Shown in pieces: positions 2,888-13,236 of a stretch of DNA of 64,000 bases (positions within the stretch are counted from its first letter, which is position 1; every line of letters begins with the position of its first letter). The position numbers and the translations under genes were made by a program. Origin of the DNA: a virus; the IMG/VR virus record IMGVR_UViG_3300023435_000659, positions 1-64,000 of that record. One strand, 5' to 3'. The notes under the pieces are model-generated. The model saw only the letters and a list, made by a program, of their open reading frames with translations, ran no database searches and had not been told where the DNA came from.

Positions 2888-3721
2888 TCAGCCTCTCACC
2901 TCTAGCGTTCGGTGCTGATAATACCAGCACATCAATTCGCGCCGCTTGCGATTCGTCCACCCGAGCCCCTGTTGGTCGGTGGTGACTTCGTTTTTCCGCA
3001 ATGCGTCCAGTCGGTGATACCACATCGGCAGTGCCATAATGCCGAACGATTCGACATACTCACACCGCTCGCGGTCTTCTTCCGGGCCACCATCGAAGCC
3101 ACACAAGACGTATGACCGTATTCGGCTCTTTGCAATCCCGGCCGTCCGCAATCTATCCACGGCATCAGCCCACGGCTCCCTATCCCGATCGTGGTCCAGG
3201 GCCAATCGGAGGATGGGCTTTCGTAACGTCGCCAATAGCCCCGCGTGAAAAGCGGTCAGCAGGCGGGCATCAAGTCCCTGGTTGAAATCAACCCCCTCGT
3301 GTTTTCGCAGGCGGGTAATGACGCGGGCAATGTGCCCTTCGCTCGCGGCCAGTAAGTTGTTGTCGCACACGATCGGCAGGTCCGGCCAGTCAGCCAATTC
3401 CGCAAACTCGCCTTCTATTTTCCGTACTCCGCAAAATGGGCATCGACGGATGCAGCCGACGGTTGTACGTGTTGCCATCGGATTGGCTCGCTGCAATACG
3501 CCCGGCATATTGTCGCCTACCGAGTCGGCCCCGAGGTCGTAGCTGGGCATCAGCCGCACGGCCGGCCCGCCCACAACCCAGCGTTTTACAAATAGGTCTC
3601 GTTGCTGAATTCTTTGCCTTGCCTTGGGTAGCAGCCACGTAAACGGGATCGACAGATACCCGGTTTCGCCTACGTGCCACTCGATGATGTCTTTAGGCCA
3701 TGCGGTGGTTATGCGTTGCAT
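2888..3721 (-). CDS. Radical SAM domain protein
   Basis: This 277-residue protein has the radical SAM cluster motif C-x3-C-x2-C (CIRRCPFC) near residue 95. Conserved-looking blocks follow, such as VCDNNLL, GVDFNQGLDARLL and LRLALDHDRD, and resemble the barrel of this superfamily. Members use a 4Fe-4S cluster to cleave S-adenosylmethionine and start radical chemistry. The substrate cannot be read from sequence. Placement upstream of a DNA methyltransferase and a DndC-like protein suggests nucleic acid modification, an inference only. Its start is the ATG at 3719-3721, inside a 20-base repeat shared with the next gene. Confidence 0.8.
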   Translation of the reverse strand: MQRITTAWPKDIIEWHVGETGYLSIPFTWLLPKARQRIQQRDLFVKRWVVGGPAVRLMPSYDLGADSVGDNMPGVLQRANPMATRTTVGCIRRCPFCGVRKIEGEFAELADWPDLPIVCDNNLLAASEGHIARVITRLRKHEGVDFNQGLDARLLTAFHAGLLATLRKPILRLALDHDRDREPWADAVDRLRTAGIAKSRIRSYVLCGFDGGPEEDRERCEYVESFGIMALPMWYHRLDALRKNEVTTDQQGLGWTNRKRRELMCWYYQHRTLEVRG

Positions 3722-3915
3722 CAGTCAGCTTCCAAGGCTGTCCGCGCCTGCTCTATGTGCCAATGCCAATCGAGTCCGATAGGCGGGTCGTCGGTGAGGT
3801 TCTCAAGGGCGGTTCGTAGCCGCGCATTGTCCGCTTGCATGTCCTCCACCGCCTGAATAATTTCCTTGGCAACACAACGTCGCCGTAGCTGGGAAATCAA
3901 CTCCTTGTTAGTCAT
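3721..3915 (-). CDS. Small coiled-coil-like hypothetical protein
   Basis: This 64-residue helical protein (MTNKELISQLRRRC...) has a likely coiled coil around AVEDMQADNARLRTALENL. Two adjacent ATGs exist. I prefer the second, because it lies 6 bases from the AGGAGG signal in the 3' end of the upstream gene, the same spacing seen at the three junctions upstream. Its stop overlaps the radical SAM start. Short helical proteins like this are common in phage early operons and have no assigned role. Confidence 0.6.
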   Translation of the reverse strand: MTNKELISQLRRRCVAKEIIQAVEDMQADNARLRTALENLTDDPPIGLDWHWHIEQARTALEAD

Positions 3916-4151
3916 CATTCACCTCCTGCCGCGTCGGCGGCTTTATTGGCTGTCGCCAGCCATATTACCGAACCGCCATCGTCGAAAACATCCTTGTTGA
4001 ATATCTCGCCGAGTAAGGCTGCGATTGACCGCAAGCAGGCGGTATCTATCGTGTCTCCGGCATTTGCCTGCAAGCATAGTTCGTCTCCGTCCAACACCAA
4101 TCCGTCAGCACGTTTTATTTTGGCCTTTAAGCCCTCTTGTTCATCGCTCAC
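3915..4151 (-). CDS. Small hypothetical protein with AADAAGGE tail
   Basis: This 78-residue acidic protein starts at GTG (4149-4151), overlapping the stop of the gene before it. The body (LVLDGDELCLQANAGDT) has no known motif. The last residues, AADAAGGE, are nearly identical to the ends of the next two upstream proteins. The GGAGG encoded by the Gly-Gly codons serves as the ribosome-binding site of the following gene. The tail is thus explained at least partly by a translation signal. Confidence 0.6.
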   Translation of the reverse strand: MSDEQEGLKAKIKRADGLVLDGDELCLQANAGDTIDTACLRSIAALLGEIFNKDVFDDGGSVIWLATANKAADAAGGE

Positions 4152-4899: not shown

Positions 4900-5168
4900 C
4901 ACTCACCTCCCGCCGCTTGTGCGGCTTGGTCGTCAAACAACCCGTCCGACAAATGGCAAAGCGCGGAAATCGCCGGACGCGACGCCTCATAAATGCCAAG
5001 GCAAGCATCGCAATAGTCTCCACGGCACGGCCGGTGAATTTTCTCGGGTTGCCTTTCCGCTTGGAATCCCTGGACTTTTACACCGAGCAACGACTGGCTC
5101 ATCTCGGTCGCCTCGGCCCCACATAATGCCCCGGTGTTTTGCAGTCCTATCCGTAGATGTATTTTCAC
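4899..5168 (-). CDS. Small Cys-rich hypothetical protein with AAQAAGGE tail
   Basis: This 89-residue protein has a GTG start (5166-5168) overlapping the stop of the tiny gene upstream in a GTGA arrangement; a longer frame exists but would cut through that gene. A Cys cluster (HRPCRGDYCDACLGIYEA) near the middle may bind zinc. The end DQAAQAAGGE carries the repeated tail and the GGAGGTGA signal for the next gene. Function unknown. Confidence 0.55.
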   Translation of the reverse strand: MKIHLRIGLQNTGALCGAEATEMSQSLLGVKVQGFQAERQPEKIHRPCRGDYCDACLGIYEASRPAISALCHLSDGLFDDQAAQAAGGE

Positions 5169-5281
5169 GGCAGTGTATCCATTGCTTTTTCGAGTGGTGT
5201 TGGCACATACTCCGGTTCGATTTCCAGTGCGGTCTCTGTTTTGCCAAACAATAAGTCCATTGTTTTCGCGAGTAGACTCAT
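5165..5281 (-). CDS. Tiny hypothetical protein (38 residues)
   Basis: The frame begins MSLLAKTMDLLFGKTETALE and ends in TPLEKAMDTLP. The ATG at 5279-5281 overlaps the preceding stop and the TGA overlaps the next GTG. This exact two-sided coupling makes it more likely a real gene than a chance frame, although it is very short. The N-terminal half could form an amphipathic helix. Function unknown. Confidence 0.5.
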   Translation of the reverse strand: MSLLAKTMDLLFGKTETALEIEPEYVPTPLEKAMDTLP

Positions 5282-5565
5282 GGCAGTTCCTCCTGTGGCT
5301 CACTTAGCTTTTCGTAATTACGATCAACTTCTTCCAGGGTATCGGCCATCGCCGCGAAGGACTCGGCCATTGTGCGCGCGGCCACGGCATTGATGCCCAT
5401 GCGGTAGGTAGACACGCATTCTGTTGGGTGGACGCCATTTAAGGAATCAAATGAATACGCCTTTTCCTCCAGCAGCAGGACTACCTCCGCCACCCCATAC
5501 GATTTAATGTCGCCGCCCGGGTGCATGGACATCATGTTTGTAAGCATCGCCTTGACGTTTTTCAT
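5278..5565 (-). CDS. Hypothetical helical protein
   Basis: This 95-residue protein begins MKNVKAMLTNMMSMHPGGD and is mostly predicted helix (VAEVVLLLEEKAYSF, TMAESFAAMADTLEEVDRNY). A Shine-Dalgarno-like AAAGGA lies upstream within a repeated DNA element (5574-5595, exact copy at 6242-6263). It overlaps the end of the upstream frame by about 60 bases. Function unknown. Confidence 0.6.
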   Translation of the reverse strand: MKNVKAMLTNMMSMHPGGDIKSYGVAEVVLLLEEKAYSFDSLNGVHPTECVSTYRMGINAVAARTMAESFAAMADTLEEVDRNYEKLSEPQEELP

Positions 5566-5839
5566 GGCTTGTTCCTTTCGTTGGTCCTCGTAAAGAAGAT
5601 AACTCCGCTGCCCGCTTGTTCCATACATCTATGTCGCAGTGGCGAAGATCATCTTGCGTACCACCCCAGTGCCCGACTATAATTTCAAGCGGCCAGACTT
5701 CATACCAGCCCCACGACGTTCCATCTGTGGACACATGCCTATTTGTTTTGCGTTTGATTTGCATTACCCAATTCTGGGCATATTTGTTCTGCTTCCGCAA
5801 TTGCTGTAAGTATCCAATGAACGTCTCTGGAGGGTTCAT
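5504..5839 (-). CDS. Hypothetical protein
   Basis: This 111-residue frame begins MNPPETFIGYLQQLRKQNKY and has a Trp-rich middle (DGTSWGWYEVWPLEIIVGHW). Its start lies 7 bases after the preceding stop, with GAGGA about 10 bases before the ATG. The last 20 codons overlap the next gene in another frame, so the natural end could have been extended by insertion of the repeated junction element. I see no known domain. Confidence 0.45.
   Translation of the reverse strand: MNPPETFIGYLQQLRKQNKYAQNWVMQIKRKTNRHVSTDGTSWGWYEVWPLEIIVGHWGGTQDDLRHCDIDVWNKRAAELSSLRGPTKGTSHEKRQGDAYKHDVHAPGRRH
5574..5595. repeat. 22-base exact repeat before gene starts (other copy 6242-6263)
   Basis: The element encodes LYEDQRK in one frame and supplies the purine-rich ribosome-binding sequence for the following start. 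A partial copy lies at 5851-5862. Confidence 0.8.
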
Positions 5840-10404: not shown

Positions 10405-13236
10405 ATGCCAATCTGTGACAAAAAGGGTTCGTCTACCCAGAGCATGGGTGATTACGAATACACTCACCATGAAGTTCCAGATGATCCTGAGTTGAATGTC
10501 TTTTGGCGGGCGGAAACATTAAGACTGGCCGCACAGAGTCATTCCAATGCCATTGTGTTTCGGCAGCAGATCATGGATCACTGCCGCAAGGACTTCTGGT
10601 ATTGGGCTAAGGGGTTTTGTTTCGTTCACGAGCCGCGGATCCTTGATGACGATGCCGAGGAGTTTAATACGAAGGTGTCATTCCTGCCATGGCCGCATCA
10701 GATTCCCGTCGTCGACCGCATTCTGAAAGTGCTGGGGAAACGAGACTTGCGGGTGGTCAAATCCCGTGCCCAGGGTGCAAGTTGGATTCTGGTACTCATT
10801 TTCATTTGGTGCTGGCTGTTTAAGCCGGGATTCAAGGGGAATCTGGTATCTAAAGATGAGGTAGCTGTTGACCGCCGGAACGACATGGATTCACTGTTCG
10901 GGAAGGCCGATTGGCTCCTGGAAAAGCTCCCTGTTTGGATGGTTGGCAAAAAGAACAAGCACTGGCGTCGTGGCTACGGTGAACACTACTTGACGCGAAT
11001 GGATGGCGAAACGGCGATCACAGGTTACGCTTGTACCGCGGATGTGGCTTCGGGCGGACGTGCTATGGTGTTCGGGATGGACGAGCACGCCAAGCACCCC
11101 CGTGGCCCTGACAGGGAGGCTTTGGCTGCGACCCAGCCAATCACCCGCTGCCGGCTATTTATCTCGACCCCCAAAGGCCGAAGCGGTGCGTACTACGAGA
11201 TTATCCACGACGACACAATCGAGGAGCCGGTCCTATACCTCTCCTGGAGGGACAACCCGACGCAGAATCGCGGATTGTACCAGATCGTCAAGGGACAACC
11301 CGTGGTAATGGATGAGGAAAAGTACGGCCCATTGCTTTCTGAGTACCAGAACCACGAGCAGTGGACGAAGTTGAAGGAGCGACTGTCCGAACGAGGATAC
11401 GACCTGACTGGCAAAGCCACTCGTTCGCAGTGGTACGACCAGGAATGCCTGCGTCCAGGTGCCAATCCCGTGCTCGTTGCCCAAGAGTACGACATGGTAT
11501 TCGGCGCGGAGGGGGCACAGTATTTTGCGGAAGCGCTCATCAACCGCCTGAAAAATTGCGTTCGCCGGCCGAAGTTAGGCGAATACCACGTCAACTCGGA
11601 ATCGCTCACGGGAAACTGGACGGAGAACCCAGACGGCCGATTCAGGATGTGGTGTGAACTAGACATCCGCAAGTCCCCACCGATGGGTGAGTACGTGGTG
11701 GGATGTGACATTTCTGCCGGGCTGGGTGGATCGGGTGGTAGCAACTCGGCGATCACGGTGTTCAGCCGGCGTACCGGGCAAAAGGTAATGTCGTTCGCCA
11801 CCCCTTCCGTAAAACCATACGAGTTTGCAGAGATAGCTATTGCGATTTGCAAGTGGTTCTGTAACTACAAAAGCGATCCGGCGTTTTTAATCTGGGAAAA
11901 TCAGGGTCCAGGCAAGGAGTTCTGCCAGCGGCTGGAACGCAGTGGGTTTCAGCACTATTACCGCCGGAAGTCTTCCGAAGAGGCTCCGCTGCACTCTCGA
12001 CATAGCAACAAGCCTGGATACTGGATGAACAAGCGAAGCGCTATTCTGGGGCCATATAGGGAGGCTCTTCTAGAGGGCCATTTCGACAACCCGGATCAGG
12101 ATGCTATCGAGGAACTTAGGCAGTACCAAATGGGCCTGGATGGCGAACCGTATCACGTTGCCAGCAAAGACAAGACCGATCCGACTGGAGCCGGTTCGGC
12201 GCACGGCGATCGTTGCTTTGTCAAGGGGACAATGATTTTGACTGATCGGGGAGAAAGACCTATTGAACAATTGATTCCAGGCGATTTGGTTTGGACTCGC
12301 GATGGACTTCGGCCAGTGTTTGCATGTGGAAAAACAGGCGAAGAACAGGTTTTCAACGCGGATTTGTCGAATGGTCGTTCGCTAATTGGGACTGGGAGGC
12401 ATCCTGTATGGACAGAAAATCGGTCATGGATCGACTTTTCATCGCTGACGTCCCGCGATAGACTACTGGCATGGCAACGTCAACATTCAGACGACGAGGT
12501 GCGTTCATGTCAACAGAATCAGTCAGAGGGCGAGTGTACAAGTGCGACCCAAGCACGGAAACCATTGTGTTTAATGGGAGGAAGTACCACCGAAACTCCA
12601 ATGCCAAGCAAAAGCACCGGCGAAGGTATTTCTGGGGCAGGCGAGAATATGGCAACGGCAAGAAGACCGCACTCCATGTCGCTATTTGGGAGTATCATAA
12701 CGGACCTGTTTCAGAAGGTTATTTGGTACATCACAAAGACAATAGCCAGAGTAATAACGACATCTCCAATCTTCAGTGTATCACCTATTCAGAGCACGGA
12801 AAGATTCACGGAAACGGCAAACACCTGGACGACTACCGACACAAAACGCTTTATTGGCATAAGTGCGAATGGTGTGGCATCAATTACCAGACCTTCCGAA
12901 AATTCAGAACACGGTTCTGTAGCCCCGAGTGCGGACAAAAGCATCTATGCGAGAGCCGTAAAGTCTGTCGCAGGGAAGCACGCTGTCTACAATCTAAGCG
13001 TAGCTAATACGCCGGAATACTTCGCACAGGGCGTTCTTGTGCATAATTGCATTGCCGATGGTCTTGCTTGGCACGCTTGCCTGATGTTCGGAGATCAGCA
13101 CGTAGGGAACGTCTGGAGGAATACAGCGAACGTGATGAGCGCTACCGAAGATAACGTGCCGCGCGAATCGTTCGCTTGGCGGCGGGCTCAGTACCTGAAG
13201 ATGCTGAAAAAAAAGAAGCTGGAAACTACTTGGTAA
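10405..13236 (+). CDS. terL: Large terminase subunit interrupted by an intein
   Basis: The 943-codon frame encodes a terminase of about 665 residues after removal of a 278-residue intein. The packaging ATPase shows a deviant Walker A (KSRAQGASW), Walker B (VFGMDEHA) and the coupling motif STPKGRSGAYY. The RNase H-like nuclease shows Asp in VVGCDISAG, Glu in LIWENQG and the third site in SAHGDR. The last site is where the intein starts, and the extein resumes with CIADGLAWH. It powers DNA packaging into the prohead through the portal. The ATG at 10405 is accepted; MGDYEYTHHE at 10444 is an alternative start. Splicing must occur for a complete nuclease site. Confidence 0.93.
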   Translation: MPICDKKGSSTQSMGDYEYTHHEVPDDPELNVFWRAETLRLAAQSHSNAIVFRQQIMDHCRKDFWYWAKGFCFVHEPRILDDDAEEFNTKVSFLPWPHQIPVVDRILKVLGKRDLRVVKSRAQGASWILVLIFIWCWLFKPGFKGNLVSKDEVAVDRRNDMDSLFGKADWLLEKLPVWMVGKKNKHWRRGYGEHYLTRMDGETAITGYACTADVASGGRAMVFGMDEHAKHPRGPDREALAATQPITRCRLFISTPKGRSGAYYEIIHDDTIEEPVLYLSWRDNPTQNRGLYQIVKGQPVVMDEEKYGPLLSEYQNHEQWTKLKERLSERGYDLTGKATRSQWYDQECLRPGANPVLVAQEYDMVFGAEGAQYFAEALINRLKNCVRRPKLGEYHVNSESLTGNWTENPDGRFRMWCELDIRKSPPMGEYVVGCDISAGLGGSGGSNSAITVFSRRTGQKVMSFATPSVKPYEFAEIAIAICKWFCNYKSDPAFLIWENQGPGKEFCQRLERSGFQHYYRRKSSEEAPLHSRHSNKPGYWMNKRSAILGPYREALLEGHFDNPDQDAIEELRQYQMGLDGEPYHVASKDKTDPTGAGSAHGDRCFVKGTMILTDRGERPIEQLIPGDLVWTRDGLRPVFACGKTGEEQVFNADLSNGRSLIGTGRHPVWTENRSWIDFSSLTSRDRLLAWQRQHSDDEVRSCQQNQSEGECTSATQARKPLCLMGGSTTETPMPSKSTGEGISGAGENMATARRPHSMSLFGSIITDLFQKVIWYITKTIARVITTSPIFSVSPIQSTERFTETANTWTTTDTKRFIGISANGVASITRPSENSEHGSVAPSADKSIYARAVKSVAGKHAVYNLSVANTPEYFAQGVLVHNCIADGLAWHACLMFGDQHVGNVWRNTANVMSATEDNVPRESFAWRRAQYLKMLKKKKLETTW
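12214..13047 (+). mobile_element. Intein in the terminase nuclease domain
   Basis: The element begins at Cys604 of the precursor (block A, CFVKGTMILTDRGE), followed by PGDLVWTRDG and block B (TGRHPVWTENRSW). It ends with AVYNLSVANTPEYFAQG and LVHN followed by extein Cys882 (blocks F and G). These are the ends expected of a class 1 self-splicing intein with Cys at both junctions and a C-terminal Asn. The usual LAGLIDADG region is missing. The middle of this frame is Ser/Thr-rich and low in complexity, because the same DNA encodes an HNH protein in another frame. Confidence 0.88.
12507..13007 (+). CDS. HNH homing endonuclease nested out of frame inside the intein
   Basis: This 166-residue protein is read two bases out of phase from the terminase/intein frame. 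It has KKTALHVAIWEYHNGPVSEG, LVHHKDNSQSNNDISNLQ and a following YSEHGKIHG, the typical pattern of phage HNH_3 endonucleases, and a C-terminal zinc finger (CEWCGINY and FCSPEC). The ATG at 12507 has GAGGTG 5 bases upstream, so it seems independently translated. An in-frame ATG at 12471 lacks a signal. It occupies the place where an intein would hold its in-frame homing endonuclease, roughly intein residues 98-265. It would make the intein mobile by cutting intein-free terminase genes. Confidence 0.85.
   Translation: MSTESVRGRVYKCDPSTETIVFNGRKYHRNSNAKQKHRRRYFWGRREYGNGKKTALHVAIWEYHNGPVSEGYLVHHKDNSQSNNDISNLQCITYSEHGKIHGNGKHLDDYRHKTLYWHKCEWCGINYQTFRKFRTRFCSPECGQKHLCESRKVCRREARCLQSKRS

Follow-up and report, generated by a model that had tools for sequence, protein, structure and literature searches.

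In fractured genes, as reportedly described by Dassa and colleagues in 2009, the intein is split and a free-standing endonuclease lies between its two parts. In the intein of the cyanophage CL131 dCTP deaminase, a HintN domain and an HNH_3 endonuclease are encoded in the same frame, and splicing was shown in E. coli (PMC6293099). Inteins in the terminase large subunit (TerL) of mycobacteriophages splice efficiently, and two of them cut intein-less alleles (Kelley et al. 2016, PMC5050341). The closest described system to that reported here is the ShiLan domain and the Pacc40 insertion of 2025 (Arsenault, Gosselin and Gogarten 2025, Genes 16:178, PMC11855218), in which a zinc-finger HNH protein is encoded out of frame within a phage DNA methylase gene. 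Here we analysed a stretch of viral DNA of 64,000 nucleotides (positions 1 to 64,000 of IMG/VR record IMGVR_UViG_3300023435_000659; hereafter the window), whose terL gene contains an intein overlapped in the -1 frame by an HNH endonuclease gene. Our reading, to which we assign a probability of roughly 0.85, is that this is a class-1-type terL intein in which the linker is overlapped, in the -1 frame, by the gene for an HNH homing endonuclease that would be made separately and would drive homing.

The terL gene of the window is a single uninterrupted open reading frame (ORF) of 943 amino acids (10405-13236; like all features below, on the plus strand), apparent from the ORF list and by direct reading, and its product matched the terminase large subunit profile phrog_2 at 4e-21. 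The N-extein of 603 amino acids (10405-12213) ends at the nuclease-domain motif AHGDR, and the C-extein of 62 amino acids plus stop (13048-13236) starts with CIADGLAWHA. Between them, in frame and within the TerL nuclease motif, lies an intein of 278 codons in frame 1 (12214-13047), with Cys1 at 12214, the last Asn at 13045-13047 and the +1 Cys at 13048. An earlier reading made from the letters of the window alone (the sequence-only reading) had described the splicing blocks as intact, and we found each motif expected of a class 1 intein: Cys1, a TxxH block B (TGRHPVWT, with TGRH at residues 60-63), a C-terminal Asn and the +1 Cys (VLVHN/C). C1, H63 and N278 were invariant across 31 aligned inteins. 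Profile searches with the intein frame matched Hint_2 (6e-10) and Intein_splicing (1.7e-5), and the intein_Cterm profile exceeded its cut-off on full-length TerL. An AlphaFold model of the window intein made with the 31 family inteins gave a confident Hint fold over residues 1-90 and 241-278, with a predicted local distance difference test (pLDDT) of 88-98. These values, together with identity to a relative, L003 (below), delimit an N-terminal splicing subdomain (residues 1-91, 12214-12486) and a C-terminal one (residues 241-278, 12934-13047) in the window. The filler loop that separates them (residues 92-240, 12487-12933) is what the HNH gene encodes when read in the intein frame, and was modelled mostly below pLDDT 55 except for a helix at 158-183. 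Foldseek matched the intein model best to the gp41-1 intein (6qaz, E 4.6e-6), and also to other mini-inteins, NpuDnaE and the Mtu RecA mini-intein (TM 0.79). A PDB search with the intein sequence returned zero matches.

The HNH ORF is in frame 3, the -1 frame with respect to the intein, and comprises 166 codons plus TAA (12507-13007), with its ATG at 12507 and its stop at 13005-13007. Both overlapping frames are open. The sequence-only reading had proposed that intein and HNH share about 500 bases in frames 1 and 3, and its coordinates were exact; profiles searched separately recognised Hint_2 and Intein_splicing in one frame and HNH_3 in the other. The HNH_3 domain (PF13392, 7.5e-15) spans HNH residues 55-98 (12669-12800) at 56.7 bits, above the cut-off, and phage HNH families were matched as well. 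Among 10 aligned homologues, H75/H76, D78, N83/N84, N88, H97 and H101 were invariant, as were the cysteines of a putative CxxC...CxxxC zinc finger (C120, C123, C138 and C142; 12864-12932), for which an FCS-type zinc-finger profile matched weakly. Sequences in the PDB gave weak HNH matches only. This nested gene is the sole HNH_3 gene of the 68 kb virus record. An alternative in-frame ATG upstream, at 12471, would give an HNH protein of 178 amino acids.

The window thus carries an out-of-frame HNH gene inside an open host-gene frame, the arrangement of ShiLan. In both cases a zinc-finger HNH lies out of frame in a phage gene, the host frame stays open and the HNH has its own start codon; in ShiLan, too, mobility is indicated, from its distribution (PMC11855218). 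The ShiLan start at insertion position 18 corresponds, by our arithmetic, to the register of the window HNH. However, its authors regard ShiLan as neither intein nor intron, its filler stays in the protein, and it lacks a detectable ribosome-binding site (PMC11855218), whereas the window has a complete intein predicted to remove the filler and its family has Shine-Dalgarno (SD) or -10 signals. With CL131-type inteins the window shares a Hint splicing domain and an HNH_3-type endonuclease between the splicing halves, but in those inteins one polypeptide contains both the splicing and the endonuclease parts. In the window it would be a separate protein from another frame, and profile searches of the intein-frame middle found no endonuclease match. 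Mycobacteriophage inteins share the phage TerL host but carry in-frame LAGLIDADG endonucleases and are inserted in the ATPase domain (PMC5050341), whereas the window insertion is in the nuclease domain. As in fractured genes, the endonuclease would be a separate protein alongside the intein halves; there the host gene is in two pieces, whereas here it is one uninterrupted frame of 943 codons, overlapped by the endonuclease gene. Free-standing HNH genes of the same family occur in Acinetobacter phage BP10, Sphaerotilus phage SN1 and Brevundimonas phage Poludnitsa, next to the terminase genes rather than inside them and without an intein. In the open-licence PMC literature (subscription papers and preprints lay outside the scope) we found no description of an out-of-frame endonuclease within an intein, and this family of phage inteins is apparently undescribed so far.

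In the mechanism that we propose, TerL would be translated straight through, and the Hint domain (about 91 N-terminal and 38 C-terminal residues) would excise itself together with the filler loop, roughly 150 mostly disordered residues that result from reading the HNH gene in the intein frame. An internal start would provide for separate production of the HNH protein: ATG 12507 with its GAGGTG SD site in the window and, probably, the start of a leaderless mRNA in many relatives, where the -10 box falls inside intein codons. Free HNH would then cut terL alleles lacking the intein, either at their insertion site or close to it, and the whole unit would be copied in when the break is repaired from the intein-bearing allele. 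Splicing, HNH expression and target cleavage are predictions of this scheme. Our computations show conservation of both frames, an intein frame held open, selection that falls mainly on the HNH frame, intact intein and HNH motifs and start signals and, in one relative, precise insertion of the unit. All of this evidence fits the compact, overlapping mobility unit envisaged by the sequence-only reading.

The close relative L003 has the same double-open layout in the same register despite diverged DNA. Its identity to the window was 66% for TerL, 71% for HNH and 42% for the intein-frame middle; the intein was 76% identical over residues 1-97 and 75% over the last 32 residues. Its HNH ORF (4989-5612) has an additional C-terminal zinc-finger-like CxxC repeat (HVCEQCGSEYESWRKTRTRFCSHKC), across which the intein frame is open throughout. 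The IMG/VR contig behind L002, L006 and L113 was 100% identical to the window over 6.8 kb, and represents the same virus rather than independent evidence.

An HNH profile search of IMG/VR gave 80 loci, the majority nested at offset -1 in an open frame with intein motifs, and after other loci were added there were 72 non-redundant nested loci, all at offset -1. To avoid bias, we also searched IMG/VR blind to HNH, using an alignment of intein N-termini (A4) with no HNH sequence included. A -1-frame HNH was present in 57 of the 64 non-redundant inteins recovered in this way and an in-frame HNH in none (0/64); the remainder were three true mini-inteins (128-141 amino acids), two long inteins without this HNH and two truncated ones. 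The sequence-only reading had regarded the out-of-frame endonuclease as a departure from normal inteins. The layout is real, but it is the norm in its family rather than a one-off. The mini-inteins (L158, L166, L171) aligned at 40-43% to the window intein but for the overlapped middle, where they have a gap, and the HNH segment is therefore a separable insert. In L162, L163, L173, L174 and L175 the -1-frame HNH is a shortened or decayed remnant, and these loci are apparent intermediates between armed intein and mini-intein. Nested HNH genes were also found in sequenced phages (Tetrasphaera phage TJE1, Acinetobacter phage Highwayman and Rhodobacteraceae LS06-2018-MD07, in all of which terL is annotated as a single coding sequence), in prophage-like loci of isolate bacterial genomes (Frankia L116, Bacteroides L123) and in a gut scaffold (unverified).

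Evidence for mobility came from the comparison of Highwayman with its relatives. A blastn search of Acinetobacter phages with the Highwayman region matched 56 records; among the matches listed, the full query was covered by Highwayman only, and 38 of 40 records matched both flanks within 303-304 bp. Highwayman differed from Acba_21, which has the empty allele, by exactly 981 bp (327 codons) placed after IDA. About 15 nt past the insertion were altered, including the +1 codon (Leu to Cys), and the other flank sequence was nearly identical. This is the pattern predicted for homing with co-conversion, and it shows that the whole unit moved in one step. Acba_21 was used in place of BP10, which we dropped as empty-site partner because its TerL was too different (47/158); the free-standing HNH of BP10 and the nested HNH of Highwayman were identical at 106 of 207 positions. 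Distances between HNH proteins were correlated with those between intein splicing domains (Mantel r 0.76; null maximum 0.20), and the partnership of HNH and intein is therefore old.

These results bear on the possibility that the HNH serves mainly in competition with co-infecting phages (terL cutting, marker exclusion) or in packaging, and not in intein mobility. HNH enzymes able to exclude co-infecting phages are known (PMC7468147), and free-standing HNH homologues adjoin uninterrupted terL in many phages. However, both the precise 981-bp insertion with its co-converted flanks and the co-divergence of HNH and intein indicate mobility of the unit, and we regard a mainly competitive role as unlikely. 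The two roles are compatible and may coexist. Members of the same family stand free beside uninterrupted terL in L068, L109, L112, L028, L029, L030, L232, L233 and L234, and such genes are possibly the source or the descendants of the nested ones.

We next consider how the HNH may be made. As the sequence-only reading had noted, GAGGTG stands 5 nt upstream of the ATG at 12507; we read it directly at 12496-12501, and both it and the ATG are retained in L003. A -10-like hexamer, TAGACT (12459-12464), lies exactly 6 nt before the alternative ATG at 12471, with position and spacing matched in the relative L153. A -10 box 6 nt before an ATG would put the transcript start at the ATG itself, giving a leaderless transcript, and TAGACT is possibly a remnant of this leaderless-promoter class. 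A sigma70 scan of the window region found no full site, and no RNA structure was found at the HNH start (z +1.44). Start signals across the family were compared with a null in which upstream codons were recoded within the intein frame. In 70 loci, whose starts were picked partly by SD strength, an SD of at least 5 nt preceded the HNH start in 19 (null 7.3 +/- 2.0), strong -10 boxes occurred in 19 (null 6.3 +/- 1.7), typically 6 nt before the ATG, and no locus had both (0/70). In a second, independent set (42 loci), in which SD played no part in the choice of start, there were 6 with SD (null 1.7 +/- 0.9) and 16 with a -10 box (null 4.5 +/- 1.4), 15 of them at 6 nt, and again none with both. 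The 6-nt spacing is partly dictated by a conserved protein motif of the intein, so that the evidence lies in the excess over recoding. On these signals the window would be an SD-type member of the family. The sequence-only reading had suggested that overprinting allows separate control of the two proteins; start-site statistics support separate start control, with expression itself a prediction from them, and they add a promoter-driven, leaderless class that this reading did not foresee.

Independent starts also bear on programmed -1 ribosomal frameshifting, which would yield a fusion of TerL-N, intein-N and HNH with no separate HNH start. In its favour, the HNH register is -1 in nearly all cases, and common frameshifting goes in that direction. 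However, slippery heptamers were not enriched (9 of 70 loci, 8.9 expected), independent starts with SD or -10 signals were, and stops in the HNH frame precede the start by a median of 4 codons, so that a slip would have little space in which to occur. The -1 register is in any case accounted for by stop density (below), and +1 cases exist (L122, L150). We consider frameshifting very unlikely.

Whether the double-open overlap is selected was assessed by replacing the codons of each HNH with synonymous ones taken from its host gene and counting stops in the other frames. Across the HNH in the 72 nested loci, which were defined by having an open frame, intein-frame stops numbered 0 against 3.64 expected per locus, and in the third frame 15.1 were observed against 12.9 expected. 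Among free-standing HNH homologues the corresponding frame was open in 1 of 19, with 2.98 stops per 100 codons. A chance overlap is plausible for the window alone and is rejected for the family by these stop counts. That recoding can leave the -1 frame of the window open reflects the small number of codons with T in position 2 in HNH proteins, and this frame is used rather than the third because recoded stop density is 3.6 against 12.9 per locus. The -1 register is thus favoured by HNH codon composition and then maintained open by selection.

Substitutions in 195 pairs of loci amounted to 0.32, 0.26 and 0.55 per site at HNH codon positions 1, 2 and 3, and identity was 60% for HNH and 36% for the intein frame. 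Given this position-3 bias and the higher HNH identity, it is the HNH frame that carries the information and on which selection mainly acts, the middle of the intein frame being poorly conserved, mostly disordered filler. The HNH is also the older frame: its family is old, with homologues that stand free, and it is the HNH frame that substitutions follow. This amends the notion of an overprinted endonuclease in the sequence-only reading: the frames do overlap, but the younger is the filler loop and not the HNH.

The same data speak to the view that the HNH frame is a dead relic disabled by frameshifts, leaving in effect a mini-intein with debris. The HNH has indeed decayed or been lost in some members (L162, L163 and L175; mini-inteins L158, L166 and L171). 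Against this, L003 retains its HNH frame, more similar to the window than its intein-frame middle is, substitutions are biased to position 3, the catalytic and zinc residues are invariant, and a nested HNH is present in most family inteins. A relic is as improbable in our estimate as frameshifting. Sequencing or assembly errors, by which an HNH really in frame would be displaced by two compensating indels, do occur in kind (L011 is nearly identical to L008, yet its intein frame is broken) but have a negligible chance of explaining the layout, given that two errors would be required every time to join the frames, that a start and a stop of its own delimit the HNH ORF, and that dozens of independent contigs, the isolates TJE1 and Highwayman, Frankia L116 and Bacteroides L123 share the -1 register, with no frameshift needed in 12480-13007 of the window.

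Several points weigh against a separately expressed, mobile HNH selected to overlap the intein. Taken alone, the window is weak evidence: recoding leaves the -1 frame open in 33% of cases (p 0.33) and its SD site is not significant (p 0.57). Nested loci share ancestry, and summed probabilities overstate their independence; their definition by an open frame, and the SD-guided choice of starts in the 70-locus set, avoided in the 42-locus set, count likewise. Searches for an intein-less allele of the window's TerL found none. The HNH model made by AlphaFold from the single sequence was useless (pLDDT 34.5).

More broadly, we think it rather probable that the mobile inteins of tailed phages and prophages include a large and old class, found mostly in TerL, with an HNH out of frame (-1, rarely +1) that is self-expressed, often via a leaderless promoter in intein codons. 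If so, many apparent phage mini-inteins would be fully armed mobile elements whose endonuclease is missed by annotation, and the class may have been overlooked because automatic annotation drops overlapping ORFs. An overlapping endonuclease in another frame would be a third way to arm an intein, beside one in frame or none, and would explain why phage inteins still spread when no endonuclease is encoded in their frame. For an intein in a late gene (terL, for example), production of the endonuclease could in this way differ in time or level from that of the host protein. The family is moreover a source of dozens of long, natural overlaps between genes on the same strand, with a simple rule for their -1 register, the scarcity in HNH proteins of codons with T at position 2.

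Nearly all intein hosts were TerL, with insertions at nuclease and ATPase active-site motifs. The rare +1-frame HNH genes in an open intein frame were found in TerL (L122, around 3141-4024) and in DNA polymerase I (L150, motif SSPNLQNIP, around 3141-4100). A non-TerL host, L013, was named a DegT-type aminotransferase from reading of the sequence; in L013/L229 this gene contains a pair of inteins, of which the first has its HNH in the -1 frame and the second apparently has an in-frame endonuclease. Two intein C-terminal motifs per terL frame in L042, L058, L069 and L070 suggest two inteins per gene. In Lactobacillus phage CL2 (L026, KR905067; 1652-2760), terL stops inside the N-half of the intein and is followed by an HNH ORF, with the C-half of the intein and the C-extein in another frame; this is either a terL intein of the split (fractured) kind or the result of frameshifts introduced by sequencing.

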